The notes under the pieces were generated by a model, which saw nothing but the letters and a program-made list of their open reading frames with translations, made no database searches and was not told where the DNA came from. Below, one piece after another: positions 5,105 to 25,348 of a DNA stretch of 64,000 nucleotides (position 1 is its first letter; each line of letters starts with the position of its first letter). Source of the DNA: Chloroflexus aggregans DSM 9485 (GTDB lineage: Bacteria; Chloroflexota; Chloroflexia; Chloroflexales; Chloroflexaceae); assembly GCF_000021945.1 (NCBI RefSeq), contig NC_011831.1, forward strand, positions 1,997,353 to 2,061,352, written 5' to 3'. Made by a program: the position numbers and the translations under genes.

Positions 5105-5845
5105 ATGATCTACCTCGATTACGCACCGATTTATCATGCTGCCGGGCAAGCAGCGTTCGGCACTGCACTGGCCCACATTATTCTCGCCCACCAGCCAACG
5201 ACGCCACGGCGTGTCCTCGATCTGGCCTGTGGTACCGGCGCCGCGGCTCTTGTCTTTGCCGCTGCCGGAGCGACGGTTGTTGGCGTTGATGCCTCGGCGG
5301 CGATGCTGGCAATCGCCCGTGATCAAGCGTACCAACGTGGGCTTACCGTCGAATGGATCGAGGCCGACATCCGTGCCTTACCCGATGACCCACACCTACA
5401 ACCGGGCAGTTTTGACCTCTGCACCTGCCTCTTCGATAGCCTCAACCATCTCACCGAAGATGGCGATCTTGCCAACGTCTGCCGGTCGGTGGGCAAATTG
5501 CTGCGCCCCGGCGGGCAGTTTATCTTCGATCTTAACACGCTCGCCGGCTTCAAAACATGGCACGAGTACGATCAGGTCATTTTCGATAGCCCTCATCTGC
5601 TGGTCGTCAACCGTCTCCACTTCGACCACGATCGGCAACGGGCGTATGGCCGTTTCGTCTGGTTCCGGCGCGAGGGGGAACGCTGGTGGCGTGGTGAAGA
5701 AACCCACTGCGAGCGTGCGTGGAGTGATGATGAGATCGTGGCAGCGTTGAATGCCGGTGAGATGCAACTGAAAGCCTGCCGCACGCCGCAATGGACGCCG
5801 CCGACCGTCGATGAACCGCGGGTCGTGTATGTGGCCGAGCGATGA
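5105..5845 (+). CDS. Class I SAM-dependent methyltransferase
   Basis: A 246-residue soluble protein with a Rossmann-type methyltransferase fold. Motif I is VLDLACGTGAAALVFAAAGA (about 35-55), followed by VVGVDAS, the acidic end of strand 2. SFDLCTCLFDSLNHL and LLRPGGQFIFDLNTL are the post-I and post-motif strands typical of ubiquinone/methyltransferase-11-like enzymes. The substrate is unknown. The frame is open from 5075, inside the ABC-F gene, but the ATG at 5105 (MIYLDYAPIY) is preferred because it avoids overlap and begins with the conserved N-terminal Tyr-rich segment; the upstream GGGAA is a weak ribosome site. It probably forms a two-gene unit with the ABC-F gene. The gene ends at the edge of decayed transposon DNA. 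Confidence 0.85.
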   Translation: MIYLDYAPIYHAAGQAAFGTALAHIILAHQPTTPRRVLDLACGTGAAALVFAAAGATVVGVDASAAMLAIARDQAYQRGLTVEWIEADIRALPDDPHLQPGSFDLCTCLFDSLNHLTEDGDLANVCRSVGKLLRPGGQFIFDLNTLAGFKTWHEYDQVIFDSPHLLVVNRLHFDHDRQRAYGRFVWFRREGERWWRGEETHCERAWSDDEIVAALNAGEMQLKACRTPQWTPPTVDEPRVVYVAER

Positions 5846-5849
5846 TCAT

Positions 5850-5960
5850 TCCTGCGCACACAACATTCCCAACCACGGCGTCATCATCATTGTCCGCAAT
5901 CCACATGATTCCAGGCACGTGATTGGGCATCATCACGAACTTCTCCTCGGACAACTGCAC
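5850..5960 (-). pseudogene. Fragment of a REP-associated Y1 transposase (RAYT), middle part
   Basis: The minus strand reads VQLSEEKFVMMPNHVPGIMW followed by IADNDDDAVVGNVVCAG. This matches the hallmark block of TnpA-REP/IS200-like Y1 transposases, where the usual form is ELDEFVVMPNHVHGIIWIVDN. The HUH metal motif His-Val-His has become His-Val-Pro, so the enzyme would be dead even if complete. Only about 37 residues remain; no C-terminal Tyr helix is present and the piece runs into the 3' end of the methyltransferase gene. The N-terminal part of apparently the same gene lies 1.7 kb away at 7700-7935, on the other side of repeat array B. Recognition is by eye from the family signature. Confidence 0.7.
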
Positions 5961-5980
5961 ATGTATTACATGTATTACCA

Positions 5981-7553
5981 CCTGTCATTGCGAGTGCAGC
6001 GAGCAATCTTGTCAAGATTGCTCGGGCGCTGACGCGCCCTCGCAATGACAAAGGAACTGCGAACACAACCCCCTGTCATTGCGAGCGCAGCGAGCAAGCT
6101 GCCCACCTCACGATGGCGCTGGCCCGCCTGTGAAATGACCGGAGGGGTTAGGGCAAGCGTAGTCCCACCTGTCATTGCGAGCGCAGCCTGTCATTGCGAG
6201 CGCAGCGAGCAATCTTGTCAAGATTGCTCGGGCGCTGACGCGCCCTCGCAATGACAAAGGAACTGCGAACACAACCCCCTGTCATTGCGAGCGCAGCGAG
6301 CAAGCTGCCCACCTCACGATGGCGCTGGCCCGCCCGTGAAATGACCGGAGGGGTTAGGGCAAGCGTAGTCCCACCTGTCATTGCGAGCGCAGCCTGTCAT
6401 TGCGAGTGTAGCGAGCAAGCTTCGTCAAGATTGCTCGGGCGCTGACGCGCCCTCGCAATGACAAAGGAACTGCGAACACAACCCCCTGTCATTGCGAGCG
6501 CAGCGAGCAAGCTTCGTCAAGATTGCTCGGGCGCTGACGCGCCCTCGCAATGACAAAGGAACTGCGAACACAACCCCCTGTCATTGCGAGCGCAGCCTGT
6601 CATTGCGAGTGTAGCGAGCAAGCTTCGTCAAGATTGCTCGGGCGCTGACGCGCCCTCGCAATGACAAAGGAACTGCGAACACAACCCCCTGTCATTGCGA
6701 GCGCAGCGAGCAAGCTGCCCACCTCACGATGGCGCTGGCCCGCCCGTGAAATGACCGGAGGGGTTAGGGCAAGCGTAGTCCCACCTGTCATTGCGAGCGC
6801 AGCCTGTCATTGCGAGTGTAGCGAGCAAGCTTCGTCAAGATTGCTCGGGCGCTGACGCGCCCTCGCAATGACAAAGGAACTGCGAACACAACCCCCTGTC
6901 ATTGCGAGCGCAGCGAGCAAGCTGCCCACCTCACGATGGCGCTGGCCCGCCCGTGAAATGACCGGAGGGGTTAGGGCAAGCGTAGTCCCACCTGTCATTG
7001 CGAGTGTAGCGAGCAATCTTCGTCAAGATTGCTTGGGCGCTGACGCGCCCTCGCAATGACAAAGGAACTGCGAACACAACCCCCTGTCATTGCGAGCGCA
7101 GCGAGCAAGCTGCCCACCTCACGATGGCGCTGGCCCGCCCGTGAAATGACCGGAGGGGTTAGGGCAAGCGTAGTCCCACCTGTCATTGCGAGCGCAGCGA
7201 GCAATCTTCGTCAAGATTGCTCGGGCGCTGACGCGCCCTCGCAATGACAAAGGAACTGCGAACACAACCCCCTGTCATTGCGAGCGCAGCGAGCAAGCTG
7301 CCCACCTCACGATGGCGCTGGCCCGCCTGTGAAATGACCGGAGGGGTTAGGGCAAGCGTAGTCCCACCTGTCATTGCGAGCGCAGCCTGTCATTGCGAGC
7401 GCAGCCTGTCATTGCGAGCGCAGCGAGCAATCTTGTCAAGATTGCTCGGGCGCTGACGCGCCCTCGCAATGACAAAGGAACTGCGAACACAACCCCCTGT
7501 CATTGCGAGTGCAGCGAGCAAGCTGCCCACCTCACGATGGCGCTGGCCCGCCC
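5981..7553. repeat. Nested palindromic repeat array B (REP-like, nine higher-order copies)
   Basis: About 1.57 kb of near-identical repeats. The core element is GTCATTGCGAGCGCAGCGAG, then CAATCTT-GTC-AAGATTG, CTCGGGCGCTGACGCGCC and CTCGCAATGAC; its outer ends are complementary (GTCATTGCGAG/CTCGCAATGAC) and two internal hairpins are present. Each unit continues with AAAGGAACTGCGAACACAAC, a second half-element and CTCACGATGGCGCTGGCCCG. The marker ATGACAAAGG occurs at 6045, 6251, 6458, 6550, 6661, 6868, 7056, 7244 and 7469. Spacings are 206, 207, 92, 111, 207, 188, 188 and 225, which fit 188 plus 0, 1 or 2 copies of the 19-bp unit CCTGTCATTGCGAGCGCAG, with one base of difference where CTTCGTC is CTTGTC. 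Short ORFs across it are not genes. RAYT fragments lie on both flanks. Confidence 0.92.
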
Positions 7554-19799: not shown

Positions 19800-19953
19800 A
19801 GCACCGTTTTGCGCGCTCTATGCTACACTACAGGGTAGGGCGCAATCCAGGATCACCGGCAGAGGGAAGGTTTCCCTCCACAATCTCTGGCATTATACTC
19901 GAACGAACTGTAAATTGCCAGTACCTGAAACCATTTAAGGATTATTTAAACCT

Positions 19954-20964
19954 ATGTCATCGTTGGCCACTTTAGCACAACCGCTCGCCGACGGCCGCTT
20001 CCAGTGTCTCGCTTGTCAATGGCAATGCAGCCTAGCCGCAGATGAGCCAGGACGCTGCCGGATGCGCGTCGGACGAACTGACGGCATTGAGCTGCTCAAT
20101 TATGGAATGATCAGCGGTGCGGCAATTGGCCCTATCGAAGACCATCGGCTCTGGCACTTTTTTCCCGACACCACCGTCCTCGCAATTGGCGGCTGGGGAT
20201 ACGCCTTACCGCTCGATCAACAACGTGGGCAATACGGTTCTTTACCGGTCGAACCGGCCAAGCGGCGGCGTCTCGATCCACAACGAGCAGCCGATTTCGC
20301 GCTTGAACGGCTCTGCCGAGGCGTGGTGTGGGCTTTTGGTGAACCGGCGGTCAACTTTGAATACGTCCTGGCACTCATGCAACTCAGTCGGGCGGCGAGT
20401 CGTTATACAGCGATTGTCACCAGTGGGCTTCTGAGTAGCGAAGCCCTCGCCGAACTTGGCCCGTATCTCAACGGTATTAGTCTTGATCTGCGTGGTTTTT
20501 CCGACAATGCCTATCAACGGCTCGGCGGGATCAGCAATTGGCGTCCGATCTTGCGCTTTGCCGAAGAGGCCCAGCAGCGTTGGAAGTGTCATATCGAGAT
20601 AACCACCCGCATCCACCACGGTGTGAACGATCACCCGGATGAACTTCGTGAGTTGGTGCATTGGATCAAAACGACGCTCGGTGAGGAGACGCCGTGGCAT
20701 GTCTTACCGGGTGATGCCGGGAGCGAAACGGCGGCTGCCACGATGCGCGCACGCCGTATCGGTCACGAGGGCGGATTACAGTTCATTTACGGTGCTGAAC
20801 CAAACCAGCCTACCCGCTGCCCGCTGTGTCACGCAACGTTAATCAGCCGGCAACAGGGGATGAGTCGTCGGGTTGGGCTTGACGGCAATCGTTGTACGAA
20901 CTGTGGATACGCGGCGAATTTCTATCTATCGATCTTTAAACACCATCGAGAGAGCGAGACGTGA
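19954..20964 (+). CDS. AmrS-like protein (AmmeMemoRadiSam radical-SAM homologue) lacking the Fe-S cysteines
   Basis: A 336-residue protein colinear with the AmmeMemoRadiSam radical-SAM enzyme family. The N-terminal Cys cluster is kept (C18, C21, C25, C35 in CLACQWQC...GRC), as are LLNYGMISGAAIGPIEDHRL and WHFFP, where relatives have DPIEKKPLYHF, and the barrel strands ISLDLRGFSD and IEITTRIHHGVNDHPDELRE. The C-terminal zinc-ribbon-like CPLCH...CTNCGY is also present. The CxxxCxxC loop that binds the 4Fe-4S cluster (GCNFRCRFCQN in relatives) is replaced by GGWGYALPLDQQ (79-90), with no Cys. It therefore cannot do standard radical-SAM chemistry. The U32/RlhA gene follows after 48 bases on the same strand. 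Confidence 0.85.
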   Translation: MSSLATLAQPLADGRFQCLACQWQCSLAADEPGRCRMRVGRTDGIELLNYGMISGAAIGPIEDHRLWHFFPDTTVLAIGGWGYALPLDQQRGQYGSLPVEPAKRRRLDPQRAADFALERLCRGVVWAFGEPAVNFEYVLALMQLSRAASRYTAIVTSGLLSSEALAELGPYLNGISLDLRGFSDNAYQRLGGISNWRPILRFAEEAQQRWKCHIEITTRIHHGVNDHPDELRELVHWIKTTLGEETPWHVLPGDAGSETAAATMRARRIGHEGGLQFIYGAEPNQPTRCPLCHATLISRQQGMSRRVGLDGNRCTNCGYAANFYLSIFKHHRESET

Positions 20965-21012: not shown

Positions 21013-23541
21013 ATGACCACCAACCAATCGGTACACACCATGCATAAACCCGAAATTATGAGTCCGGCCGGCTACTGGCCGCAACTCCATGCCGCGATTG
21101 AGGCCGGCGCCGATGCCGTCTATTTTGGTTTGACGCATTTCACGGCACGCGCGAAGGTCGGTTTTACGCTCGATGAGTTGCCGGAGGTGATGAGGACACT
21201 CCATCGCCGCGGCGTTAAAGGGTACGTTACGTTCAATACCTTAGTGTTCGACCACGAGCTACGCACGGCGGCGAGGACACTTGCAGCGATCGCCGCAGCC
21301 GGCGCCGATGCGATCATCGTGCAAGATCTCGGTATTGCAGCACTGGCCCATCAGATTGTGCCCGATCTCCCTATTCACGGGAGCACGCAGATGAGCATCA
21401 CCAGTGCGGAAGGAGTAGCTTTTGCCGCCCGCTACGGCGTCTCGCGGGTGGTCTTGGCCCGCGAGTTGTCGCTGGCCGAGGTTGCCGCCATTCGTTCACG
21501 TAGCCCTATCGAACTCGAAATCTTTGTCCATGGCGCCCTCTGCGTCTCATATTCGGGACAGTGTTTTTCGTCAGAGGCATGGGGCGGACGCAGTGCGAAC
21601 CGTGGTCAATGCGCTCAAGCATGTCGCTTACCCTACGAGTTGATCGTCGACGGAAAACCACGACCCCTCGGCGCGGCGCGCTATTTGCTCTCACCCGGCG
21701 ATCTGGCCGCTATTGATGATATGACAACTATCGCTCGCCTGGGCGTGAGTGCGCTCAAGATCGAAGGGCGGTATAAAGATGCTGAATACGTTGCGATCAC
21801 AACCAACGCATATCGCCGCGCACTCGATGCGGTATGGGCCGGGCTTCCTTCCGATTTGACCGTTGCCGACCGGCTGTACCTCGAACAAGTGTACTCTCGT
21901 GGGCTGGGACCGCACTTTTTGCGCGGCACGAATCATCAGGCTGTCGTCGAAGGGCGCGCCCCTCGCCACCGCGGTTTGTTGATGGGACGGGTGGTGCGGG
22001 TGCGTGCAGACGCGATCATTATCATACCTGAACGGGGCCGCGAGGCGGCACCGCTCAAGCCTGGCGATGGTGTTGTCTTTGATGCCGCCGATTGGCGCAG
22101 CCCGGAAGAGCCAGAAGAGGGTGGTCGCATCTTTACGGTTGAACCGGTCGGTGATGGATTGCTGGCAATTCGTTTCGCAAAGGGGGCAATTAATCCACGC
22201 CGTATTCGCGCCGGAGATCTGCTGTGGCGCACAAGTGATCCGCAAACCGAGCGAATAGCCCGCCCCTTCGTGCAAGCGGCTGCACCGGCACGCCGCCAAC
22301 CGGTGCGCGTCACAGCGCTGGTACGCGCCGGTGCGCCGCTTGAACTACACTGGTCGCTTATTGCCCAACCGAGCTTGACCGTAACGGTACAGAGTCCGAC
22401 ACCTCTGACCACAGCCCAGAATCGGCCACTCGATGAAACGACGCTGCGTGAGCAATTGGGGCGGTTAGGCGATACTCCTTACCAACTGACCGAACTCAAC
22501 GCGGTCATTGAAGGCAACCCGTTTGTGCCGGTATCGCTGCTCAACCAATTGCGCCGGCAAGCCACCGCTGCGCTCGCCGAGTTGCAAGGACGGCCACCGG
22601 CAATGAACATCCTCGATCCGGAGCAGGTGTTAGATACCATGCTCGCTGCCGTTGCCCCATCCGCACCACCTGACACTGCTCAGATTCACCTCCTGATCCG
22701 TTCACCCGATCAACTCGAAGCGGCGATTGCGCTACAGCCGGCCAGTATTACGCTCGATTATCTCGACCTTGAAGGATTGAAGCCGGCCGTGACCCGCGTG
22801 CGCGCTGCCGGGATCGCAGTCCGTGTTGCCGCACCGCGGGTGCTCAAACCGGAAGATGAGCGAGTAGCCCGCTTTTTACGTAAACTCAATGTACCGCTGC
22901 TCGTGCGCTCGACCGGCTTGCTCGACAGGCTGCGCGACGATCCGACGGTTGAGTTGACCGGTGATTTTAGCCTCAACGCAGCCAATATCCTCACCGCCGA
23001 TCTGCTGCTGCGGTCGGGATTACAACGGCTCACGCTGACCCACGATCTCAACGCCGAGCAGATCGCGCACTTAGCCGAACGGATCGGCGGTAGTCGGCTA
23101 GAAGCCATCGTCTATCACCATCTCCCTGTCTTTCATACCGAGCACTGTGTCTTTTGTCGTTTCTTATCAACTGGAACCAGTTACAAAGACTGCGGTCGCC
23201 CGTGTGAACGTCACCACGTTGCGCTGCGCGACACTCACGGTCGGGCACACCCGGTCATTGCTGATGTTGGTTGCCGCAACACGGTCTTTGGGGCTGAGGC
23301 GCAAGAAGCGAGCAAATATCTCGACCGCTGGCGCGCTGCCGGGATTGCTCACTACCGGCTTGAATTTGTCCATGAAACAGCAGCGCAGATTACTGCGGTG
23401 ACAGAAGCCTTCCGTGCGTATTTGCAGGAAGAGATTGATGCTGCTGAGCTAGGGCGACGTTGGCGACAAAGCGCACCACAAGGCGTCACCGAAGGTAGTT
23501 TCTTCGTACCGGCAAATTATCAGTACATTCCACTGATGTGA
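21013..23541 (+). CDS. rlhA: U32-family protein, RlhA-like (23S rRNA C2501 hydroxylation)
   Basis: An 842-residue member of peptidase family U32, the longer type with a DUF3656 middle region, as in E. coli RlhA (YdcP). Seen: EIMSPAGYWPQLHAAIEAGA (barrel start), FVHGALCVSYSGQCFSSEAW followed by GQCAQACRLPY with the family's four conserved Cys, and a C-terminal second Cys set (HTEHCVFCRFL, DCGRPCERH). U32 proteins were long thought to be peptidases; the studied ones with these Cys act in hydroxylation of rRNA, tRNA or ubiquinone using prephenate and Fe-S clusters. RlhA is the best match by length and domains, but the exact substrate here is inferred. The next gene begins 11 bases after its stop. 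Confidence 0.85.
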   Translation: MTTNQSVHTMHKPEIMSPAGYWPQLHAAIEAGADAVYFGLTHFTARAKVGFTLDELPEVMRTLHRRGVKGYVTFNTLVFDHELRTAARTLAAIAAAGADAIIVQDLGIAALAHQIVPDLPIHGSTQMSITSAEGVAFAARYGVSRVVLARELSLAEVAAIRSRSPIELEIFVHGALCVSYSGQCFSSEAWGGRSANRGQCAQACRLPYELIVDGKPRPLGAARYLLSPGDLAAIDDMTTIARLGVSALKIEGRYKDAEYVAITTNAYRRALDAVWAGLPSDLTVADRLYLEQVYSRGLGPHFLRGTNHQAVVEGRAPRHRGLLMGRVVRVRADAIIIIPERGREAAPLKPGDGVVFDAADWRSPEEPEEGGRIFTVEPVGDGLLAIRFAKGAINPRRIRAGDLLWRTSDPQTERIARPFVQAAAPARRQPVRVTALVRAGAPLELHWSLIAQPSLTVTVQSPTPLTTAQNRPLDETTLREQLGRLGDTPYQLTELNAVIEGNPFVPVSLLNQLRRQATAALAELQGRPPAMNILDPEQVLDTMLAAVAPSAPPDTAQIHLLIRSPDQLEAAIALQPASITLDYLDLEGLKPAVTRVRAAGIAVRVAAPRVLKPEDERVARFLRKLNVPLLVRSTGLLDRLRDDPTVELTGDFSLNAANILTADLLLRSGLQRLTLTHDLNAEQIAHLAERIGGSRLEAIVYHHLPVFHTEHCVFCRFLSTGTSYKDCGRPCERHHVALRDTHGRAHPVIADVGCRNTVFGAEAQEASKYLDRWRAAGIAHYRLEFVHETAAQITAVTEAFRAYLQEEIDAAELGRRWRQSAPQGVTEGSFFVPANYQYIPLM

Positions 23542-23552
23542 GGAGATGGACT

Positions 23553-24611
23553 ATGGTTACCAGCTTATGGGATCAACTGGCACGAAGACTGGTTGACGCG
23601 CTTGGTGCGCAGCGCGGTGAGTTGATCGAAGTACGCGATGAGGCGGGTAATCAACGTCTTCTGCATGCCATCTTATGGGCGATTGAGAGCGTTGGCGCCG
23701 AACCACTGGTGCAAATATTGCCACCCAACAACGTCGAACGGTTATTGACGACCGTACCGGCAGCAATTTTAGCCGAACGTGATCGGCGACGGGCCGAGTG
23801 GCTATGTCAGGTTGAACGTTCACTCACGTTGATCGGCGCCCAACCGGATGTACAAACTGCACCGGTGGAAGCCCGTCGCATGTTTACCGAGGTATCCGAT
23901 CGGCTCGCAGCAATCAGAGCAGAACGGCGGATTCCACAGGTCATTGCGGCCATTCCCACTATCGGCAAAGCGGCTCAACTCGGCATCAGCCACGAGGAGC
24001 TAGAGCTGCGGGTGATGCCGGCATTGCTGGTTGAACCAACCGATCTGGCCGTACAGGGCAAGCGCATAGCAAGCATGGTAGAAACGGCAACTGCTATTAC
24101 CATCACGAGTGGGGCAGATTGCGAGCTACGGATGCGGCGCAGTGCGCAACCATGGTTGCGCAATGTTGGACGACTGGAAACAGTTTCTGACCGACCCGGC
24201 CAGCCGGTGATTAACGTACCGGCCGGCGCATTAACCACCACGGTTGATGAAGAGAGTGTTGAGGGAACGCTCTTCTTGCCGGTAGCCGGACCGGCCCGCG
24301 CTGTCCGGCTTACGTTCGCTCAAGGGCAGTTGATCCAGATCGAGGCGGCAAGTGGTGGAGAACAGCTCGCGGATCTACTCAACCGCACATCACGTCGGAT
24401 GAGCCTGATCGGCATTGGTTTGAACCCACATCTATGCCAACCGCTCGGCTGGTCAATCGTTGATAAGCACATTCAGGGCGCAATCTTCACGACCTTCACT
24501 GCCGGTAACGCATACCACTCGTGGCTGAACATCGATGTTGCCACAACGTCGGCTAGTTTGCGCGCCGATGATCGGGTGATTGTGGATAGGGGCAAATTGG
24601 TAGTTGGATAA
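23553..24611 (+). CDS. M29 aminopeptidase-like protein with eroded metal ligands
   Basis: A 352-residue protein with the fold signature of thermophilic M29 aminopeptidases: N-terminal alpha/beta domain, then NVPAGALTTTVDEESVEGTL, IGIGLNPHL and VDKHIQGAIFTTFTAGNAYH. In active enzymes these read xxPxGEVFTAPxxxxxxG, GExxxGxNP, and EKxxGTxHxAxG followed by xHxDxM. The Glu of the first motif is Ala-Leu, the Glu of the second is Ile, and His ligands are Thr/Asn, so the dimetal site looks lost. It may have become a binding or regulatory protein. The ATG at 23553 is chosen because AGGAG sits 7 bases before it; a GTG at 23538 would overlap the U32 gene. It is cotranscribed with the U32 gene. Confidence 0.78.
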   Translation: MVTSLWDQLARRLVDALGAQRGELIEVRDEAGNQRLLHAILWAIESVGAEPLVQILPPNNVERLLTTVPAAILAERDRRRAEWLCQVERSLTLIGAQPDVQTAPVEARRMFTEVSDRLAAIRAERRIPQVIAAIPTIGKAAQLGISHEELELRVMPALLVEPTDLAVQGKRIASMVETATAITITSGADCELRMRRSAQPWLRNVGRLETVSDRPGQPVINVPAGALTTTVDEESVEGTLFLPVAGPARAVRLTFAQGQLIQIEAASGGEQLADLLNRTSRRMSLIGIGLNPHLCQPLGWSIVDKHIQGAIFTTFTAGNAYHSWLNIDVATTSASLRADDRVIVDRGKLVVG

Positions 24612-24811
24612 CAACGCAAATGCCGCAAAGAGCGTCGTCGTAGGGGCGCACTGCCATCCCCCCACGGCAGAGCGCATCCCACAGCCGTGCTCCACAACAC
24701 GACACCCACACAACATATTCCATCAAAATGGTAAGATAGCCAGCGACCTACCGGTAGGTGTACCGGACGGTTTCACCTCATCGGTGGGGAAACATCAACA
24801 AAGGAGAACAT

Positions 24812-25348
24812 ATGCGACCACAAGTGGAGTTTTGGCTGATCACCGGGCTTGTCATTCTTAGTCGGATCGGCGATGGTCTGAGCACCTATTGGGTCACTCC
24901 CGATCTCTCACGCGAGCTAAACCCTTTAGCAGCCGGAGGATGGCCAGCTTTGATTATTGCTGCTGCCGCAATGCTTACACTCTCGACGATATTGCACTAC
25001 TGTTACCTGTTCCGGCCTATCGGTAATTTCCCGCCAACCCCCGGGTATGACCTCAGTGCATTTAAACGATATTACTTCGACCCGTATACCAACCGCACTC
25101 TCGCAACACAGACCATTCGTGTACTCGCTTACGTCTTCGGGTACATTATGCCACGTACCATCATCATATGGAGTCTGCTGTTGATTACGAACAATCTCCT
25201 CACCGCATTCGCGGTCGAACCGTACATTGCACTCAAGCAAGCTTACCCGGTCTGGCTTGCTTTTTACGTGATGTTACTGATACTGGCACTCGTATTTCTT
25301 GAACGCCTACAACGGCGCGACTTCTCGTGGTATCAAGCGAAAGTATAA
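24812..25348 (+). CDS. Hypothetical integral membrane protein
   Basis: A 178-residue protein with about four hydrophobic segments: WLITGLVILSRIGDGLSTYW, GWPALIIAAAAMLTLSTILH, a central one near VLAYVFGYIMPRTIIIWSLL, and WLAFYVMLLILALVFLERL at the C-terminus. The N-terminal RIGDGLSTYWVTPDLSRELN resembles the start of small DUF5658-like membrane proteins. No function can be assigned. AAAGGAG eight bases before the ATG fixes the start; an upstream in-frame ATG at 24758 has none. It is convergent with hutH. Confidence 0.75.
   Translation: MRPQVEFWLITGLVILSRIGDGLSTYWVTPDLSRELNPLAAGGWPALIIAAAAMLTLSTILHYCYLFRPIGNFPPTPGYDLSAFKRYYFDPYTNRTLATQTIRVLAYVFGYIMPRTIIIWSLLLITNNLLTAFAVEPYIALKQAYPVWLAFYVMLLILALVFLERLQRRDFSWYQAKV

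Follow-up and report, generated by a model that had tools for sequence, protein, structure and literature searches.

What does a radical-SAM protein do once the cysteines of its catalytic cluster have gone? The question is raised by a gene at 19954..20964 (+ strand) of the window, the 64,000-nucleotide stretch of Chloroflexus aggregans DSM 9485 that was analysed, within a genome of 4,684,931 bases on a single contig. The gene has an ATG start and a single open frame and encodes a protein of 336 aa, here called AmrS-d, a cluster-less homologue of AmrS, the radical SAM enzyme of the AmmeMemoRadiSam system (TIGR04337). The TIGR04337 profile, whose curated cut-off is 220 bits, gives AmrS-d a score of only 144.6 (E 3.2e-42) and has no other match in the genome (E <= 0.001). 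The match aligns residues 9–321 of 336 with profile positions 5–329 of 349, and this alignment bears out the descent from AmrS and the full colinearity claimed by the first-pass annotation. Measured against TIGR04337, AmrS-d thus has full-length homology and both outer Cys4 groups, and it lacks the required bit score and the CxxxCxxC motif. PF04055 (Radical_SAM) matches with 35.8 bits and passes its gathering cut-off of 29.5; this match starts at profile position 32, which is AmrS-d residue 111, past the Cys loop. All eight cluster-less proteins that were scanned score below 220 with TIGR04337 (120.4–195.2 bits), and the three canonical AmrS scanned pass it (303.4, 308.9 and 600.5 bits). With PF04055, three of seven further cluster-less proteins pass (34.7, 35.5 and 49.1), three are under the cut-off (29.2, 29.2 and 18.4) and one has no match (E <= 0.01). 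The counterpart of Chloroflexus islandicus is 88% identical to AmrS-d.

The CxxxCxxC loop reads GGWGYALPLDQQ in AmrS-d. On alignment with canonical proteins, the former [4Fe-4S]/SAM loop, residues 79–92 (20188..20229, + strand), has the sequence GGWGYALPLDQQRG and pairs gap-free with GxWGCNFHCxxCQN(W) of the nearest canonical relatives. Tyr83, Leu87 and Gln90 occupy the three canonical Cys positions with no gaps, and all three cluster cysteines are indeed gone. The triad is absent from 61/61 aligned relatives of the class and present in 52/52 canonical AmrS, among which are second, canonical copies from the same genomes; the two groups were sorted by the loop itself, and trees without the loop columns (see below) provide the independent check. 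The observation of an AmrS relative without the radical-SAM Cys motif is therefore real. Position by position, Cys83 and Cys90 are each found in 0/61 cluster-less versus 52/52 canonical proteins and Cys87 in 1/61 (L071) versus 52/52. Asn92 is kept in 1/61 versus 52/52 and Lys at position 180 in 0/61 versus 52/52; in AmrS-d the latter is replaced by Arg180 (20491..20493, + strand). A pattern search found CxxxCxxC nowhere in any of the 61 cluster-less sequences, and residues 60–112 hold no cysteine in 59/61 and a single one in L070 and L071, never three. The search rules out a displaced triad elsewhere in the chain, and the objection that another Cys triad might fill the cluster position fails with it. 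L071 is a case of its own: this locus (5439–7477) carries one leftover loop cysteine (Cys87) together with Asn84 and then a Memo gene (198.6 bits), and no other of the eight scanned cluster-less proteins reaches its TIGR04337 score of 195.2. It has the appearance of an intermediate and comes from a MAG listed with 6% contamination.

AmrS-d has matches in 70/158 genomes of the class (E <= 0.001), and in a search of the phylum 151/400 genomes matched (E <= 1e-20). From the class and phylum matches 113 distinct sequences were aligned, 61 without the triad and 52 with it; the 61 stand for 61 genomes, one row each, with identical rows counted once and a second L090 fragment excluded. These are 61 of the 70 matching class genomes. 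Among the other nine, five read later (G017, G044, G046, G063 and a G066 fragment) likewise lack the triad, G025 and G037 yielded fragments in which the loop is unreadable, and G054 and G068 have a canonical match only. A scan of named genomes with patterns of the cluster-less clade returned 41 loci, all with Chloroflexota-type titles save one 'bacterium'. In a maximum-likelihood tree of 41 rows, from which residues 79–104 were removed and which was rooted on other canonical rows, all 19 cluster-less rows form one clade with support of 100/100, recovered in 100% of 200 bootstrap trees. It arises from within canonical rows that come from other parts of the phylum, and the branch uniting it with its canonical sisters has support of 92/79, under the starred level. 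An 82-row quick tree likewise gave a single cluster-less clade (SH-aLRT 99, stem 0.55). Within the clade, families f1+f4, f2 and f3 each group together, where f1 apparently comprises Chloroflexus, Oscillochloris, Viridilinea and Chloroploca, f4 is Roseiflexus and f2 includes Herpetosiphonaceae. Among the canonical sisters are some from small genomes (f21, 1.4–2.1 Mb). The single clade nested in canonical AmrS, obtained with the loop columns removed, argues that the triad was lost once, long ago, and that the cluster-less form was then inherited vertically. Judged by these trees, cluster-less AmrS is a class-wide clade with one origin and not a local oddity; a survey of the Chloroflexi for the same Cys loss, as the first-pass annotation had proposed, thus finds it across the class. 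The canonical copies L038–L049 come from 10 class genomes, nine of which also hold a cluster-less copy (G066 as two fragments; in G054 none was seen beside the canonical copy), so the cluster-less protein is not a mere stand-in.

Since the triad is missing from 61/61 distinct sequences from 61 genomes, its loss is no base error, and the suggestion that a sequencing error might restore the Cys codons can be dropped. Within the genus, dN/dS is 0.021–0.061 in the 12 of 15 pairs for which it was computable, rough figures as dS is near saturation in most; at the level of sequence comparison, AmrS-d is thus shown to be under purifying selection within the genus. Sequencing error, pseudogene formation and decay are ruled out by the recurrence, the dN/dS values and a high-confidence fold.

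The AlphaFold2 model of AmrS-d (30 rows) has a pLDDT of 94.6 and a pTM of 0.92. Its best solved structural match is the PFL activase 3c8f, with a Z of 19.6 and an rmsd of 2.8 Å over 216 residues; PFL activase also gives the best Foldseek match (E 1.2e-10), and the next family listed, NifB, lies below it with a Z of 15.6. The predicted partial barrel superposes on PFL activase. In the alignment with that enzyme, Arg180 corresponds to Lys131 and Asp178 to Asp129, two residues that we take to have a role at the SAM ribose. Other residues of the SAM region are retained in the cluster-less proteins, namely Glu/Asp130 in 61/61, Pro131 in 60/61 and Asp178 in 42/61, and with these in place AmrS-d may bind SAM without a cluster. 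His249 is retained in 54/61.

Both outer cysteine groups are kept, as had been claimed. The N-terminal Cys4 (Cys 18, 21, 25 and 35; residues 18–35, 20005..20058, + strand) is found in 61/61 cluster-less and 52/52 canonical proteins, and the C-terminal Cys4 (Cys 289, 292, 314 and 317; residues 289–317, 20818..20904, + strand), with zinc-ribbon-like spacing, in 60/61 cluster-less proteins, the exception being L090, a frame-broken MAG copy. Their near invariance, together with Glu/Asp130 and the part of the SAM region that is kept, is what speaks for AmrS-d still being a radical-SAM or Fe-S enzyme whose cluster near SAM is held by other residues, such as the N-terminal Cys4. We consider this very improbable indeed: the SAM-site lysine and Asn92 have gone, as have all cysteines of residues 60–112 in 59/61, and canonical AmrS keeps the same outer cysteines beside its triad, so that there they serve another job. 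With the cluster ligands lost, AmrS-d would carry out no radical-SAM chemistry in the known way, and its Cys4 modules may be structural zinc sites or auxiliary cluster sites.

In f1+f4 the surroundings of the former cofactor carry a residue set of their own. Tyr83, Asp88, Gln89, Arg91, Arg180, Arg219, His221 and Asp254 are near-invariant there, meaning that each is fixed in at least 95% of 21 f1+f4 rows and absent or nearly so in the sister group; Asp88, for example, occurs in 3% of canonical sisters. The new Arg219-x-His221 pair lies at 20608..20616 and Asp254, which is invariant in f1+f4 and replaced by Tyr in 16/29 canonical sisters, at 20713..20715 (both + strand). Taking as pocket segments the stretches that follow the barrel strands, picked from the strand ends of the predicted model, we obtained a conservation (JSD) of 0.741 versus 0.659 for the remaining barrel in f1+f4 (21 non-redundant rows; 0/5000 permutations). 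In canonical sisters the values are 0.777 versus 0.644 (0/5000), and across all cluster-less proteins (34 rows) the rise is modest, 0.611 versus 0.564, with 156/5000 permutations as high. New polar residues fall in the pocket in 8/15 cases (p 0.009), or in 4/11 with the loop excluded (p 0.11), for a pocket and residue list chosen post hoc with the alignment already seen. This set is specific to f1+f4, since f2, f3 and the other families do not as a rule have Arg180, Arg219 and His221. Arg122, Arg146, Ser149 and Arg150 are fixed in f1+f4 as well, and few or none of the sisters have them; they precede strands in the model and hence probably lie away from the pocket.

The explanation that we favour, and regard as fairly likely, is that AmrS-d is a non-radical pseudo-radical-SAM protein, inherited vertically, whose rebuilt pocket binds a ligand or a partner. 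As sequences and tree show, one AmrS copy in an ancestor within the class lost the [4Fe-4S] triad and the SAM-site lysine, keeping the two terminal Cys4 modules and the predicted PFL-activase-like partial barrel. In f1+f4 the pocket would then have been rebuilt with Tyr83/Asp88/Gln89/Arg91, Arg180, Arg219-x-His221 and Asp254 around Glu/Asp130 and His249, residues read from the sequences and placed at the barrel mouth by the strand ends of the predicted model. Such a pocket could take up a small anionic compound or bind a macromolecular partner, and AmrS-d may act as a binding protein, adaptor or chaperone. The acid, His and Arg residues newly fixed near the predicted strand ends would also suit a new non-radical enzyme with a catalytic pocket (Asp88, His221, His249, Asp254 and Arg clamps), possibly metal-dependent. 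However, the residue set differs between families and we recognised no known catalytic arrangement in it, and we think such an enzyme quite improbable.

A further alternative is that nothing is bound in the old pocket and that AmrS-d is a pure scaffold or pseudoenzyme, acting through its Cys4 modules and the surface by which AmrS meets its partners, for example by holding AMMECR1 in f2. Besides the Cys4 groups, Arg105, Arg122, Tyr171, His213, Glu215, Asn225 and Trp237 are invariant in the 30-row cluster-less alignment, as this alternative would have it, and the pocket varies between families. The old partners are indeed still found at some loci. AMMECR1 lies directly 3' of the cluster-less gene in 7/7 f2 loci (two confirmed by Pfam) and is present in 9/9 listed f2 genomes, and Memo directly follows the cluster-less gene at one f6 locus, that of the MAG L071. 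Yet PF01871 and PF01875 each occur in just 11 of the 158 class genomes surveyed, either one in 19, and the AmrS-d genome has no match to PF01871, PF02900 or PF01875 (E <= 0.001). Missing from that genome, the old partners are not what maintains AmrS-d there. The pocket segments of f1+f4, moreover, are better conserved than the other barrel parts, and altogether we rate a pure scaffold as rather unlikely. PF02900 (LigB) is found in 50/158 class genomes, some of them bearing AmrS-d; since this family also covers ring-opening dioxygenases, these counts speak neither for nor against a Memo-like partner encoded at another place in such genomes.

On the rebuilt-pocket reading, the cluster-less protein would function in most lineages with neither Memo nor AMMECR1. 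Of the canonical sister loci, 26/29 have matches to Memo/LigB and AMMECR1 downstream, fused to each other in L112. With AMMECR1 kept in f2, Memo in one MAG and neither in the AmrS-d genome, the cluster-less gene probably comes from an AmmeMemoRadiSam operon that has since been dismantled, with the loss of its partners. The first-pass annotation was right that no AMMECR1 or Memo gene is near AmrS-d, none being found genome-wide, and the f2 loci and the MAG show that this does not extend to all of its relatives. Downstream of other cluster-less genes, on their strand and no more than 6.5 kb away, LplA (lipoate ligase-like) occurs in 6/7 f2 and 3/3 f3 loci (L063–L070, L088, L089) and GcvH in 6/7 f2 loci, with glycine-cleavage genes in most f2. 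In the f5/f6/f8 loci (L032–L037, L071) a Ser/Thr kinase with a PQQ propeller and a PP2C phosphatase lie downstream in 7/7 and a VWA protein in 6/7. These downstream gene names rest on one or two cluster members each.

The other neighbours of AmrS-d differ in how widely they are shared. Upstream and divergent lies lepB (signal peptidase I, PF10502; 19089..19799, − strand), a neighbour conserved across families: it is found at 52/61 cluster-less loci, at 51 of these less than 700 bases away, and is missing from nine (L026, four of f2 and four of f5). At canonical sister loci it was found in 0/29, within up to about 9 kb per side and less in some. We rejected this adjacency as proof of a common function, as conserved gene order is by itself insufficient. 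Between lepB and the AmrS-d gene, at 19861..19879, is a genus-conserved palindrome, GGAGGGAA-NN-TTTCCCTCC, with one mismatch here and exact in eight other genus loci (L002–L007, L072 and L073, from six genomes); no other site in the genome matches it with one mismatch or fewer, and a shared operator or a leader hairpin is possible. Downstream, a U32-family gene (PF01136 + DUF3656; 21013..23541, + strand) had been taken as the partner of AmrS-d. This pairing holds in the genus, where U32 adjoins the cluster-less gene in 7/7 Chloroflexus loci, and breaks down elsewhere, with 0/54 other loci (L017, L050 and L091 with less than 500 bases downstream, seven more with about 1.2–1.5 kb). U32 matches occur in 57/82 genomes of the order (E <= 1e-60); outside the genus within the order, the U32 gene of AmrS-d-bearing genomes is apart or not found, and no match at this threshold was found in the near-complete AmrS-d-bearing genomes G064, G065, G060 and G030. 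U32 was thus rejected as a general functional partner, and a pairing confined to the genus says little on function. The gene at 23538–24611 overlaps the U32 stop and has no family match over cut-off (M29 metallopeptidase, 13.1 bits, sub-threshold); in L072 and L073, too, U32 is followed by a homologue of this gene. The ORF at 24758–25348 (196 aa) has no Pfam match (E <= 1) and an NCBIfam score of 16.2 bits, far under cut-off, and has, judged by eye, the look of a membrane protein.

Taken as a whole, the earlier interpretation is partly supported. Its choice of a scaffold or a non-radical activity over decay agrees with the conservation, the dN/dS values and the conserved new pocket residues. 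As the parts for the chemistry are lost and the protein is nonetheless tightly guarded by evolution, AmrS-d and its counterparts have probably been put to new use. A broader statement is possible, and we offer it tentatively: the class may have converted a radical-SAM enzyme, in a single origin, into a cluster-free and SAM-free protein with a new active or ligand site at the place of the cofactor, and both the canonical parent and the cluster-less daughter would survive, along with intermediate operons (with AMMECR1, with Memo or with neither). The cluster-less proteins, a set provided by nature, have dropped the radical step and are nonetheless conserved, so that a binding role of AmrS becomes separable from its chemistry, and they offer an example of a cofactor enzyme turned into something else, with parent and daughter coexisting in the same genomes.

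Memo and AMMECR1 have human counterparts, and Memo systems are reportedly the subject of a study by Burroughs et al. in 2019. In a search of the open-access literature, we recognised no paper on cluster-less AmrS by its title or the start of its abstract. AMMECR1 has been placed among the uncharacterised top-priority archaeal proteins (PMC6393860), and peptide-processing conflict systems contain radical-SAM domains akin to the ones in Memo-Ammecr1 systems, according to a passage that describes no cluster-less form (PMC7159879). Among known systems, AmrS (TIGR04337) is like AmrS-d in its full-length colinearity and its N- and C-terminal Cys4, whereas AmrS-d has no CxxxCxxC and no SAM-site lysine, scores under the cut-off and has no Memo or AMMECR1 in its genome. 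The PFL activating enzyme (3c8f, 3cb8) shares the partial-barrel fold of the AmrS-d model over 216 residues, but AmrS-d is only 16% identical to it in the aligned part, has lost the loop and the Lys131 equivalent and carries a Cys4 at both ends. HemW-type heme chaperones, of which 29.4% of sequences have the full motif LYxHxPFCxxxCxxCxF by the figure that PMC10320005 cites from Wilkens et al. 2021, belong to another subfamily (HemN-like) and are a precedent only in that a protein of radical-SAM fold can serve as a chaperone.
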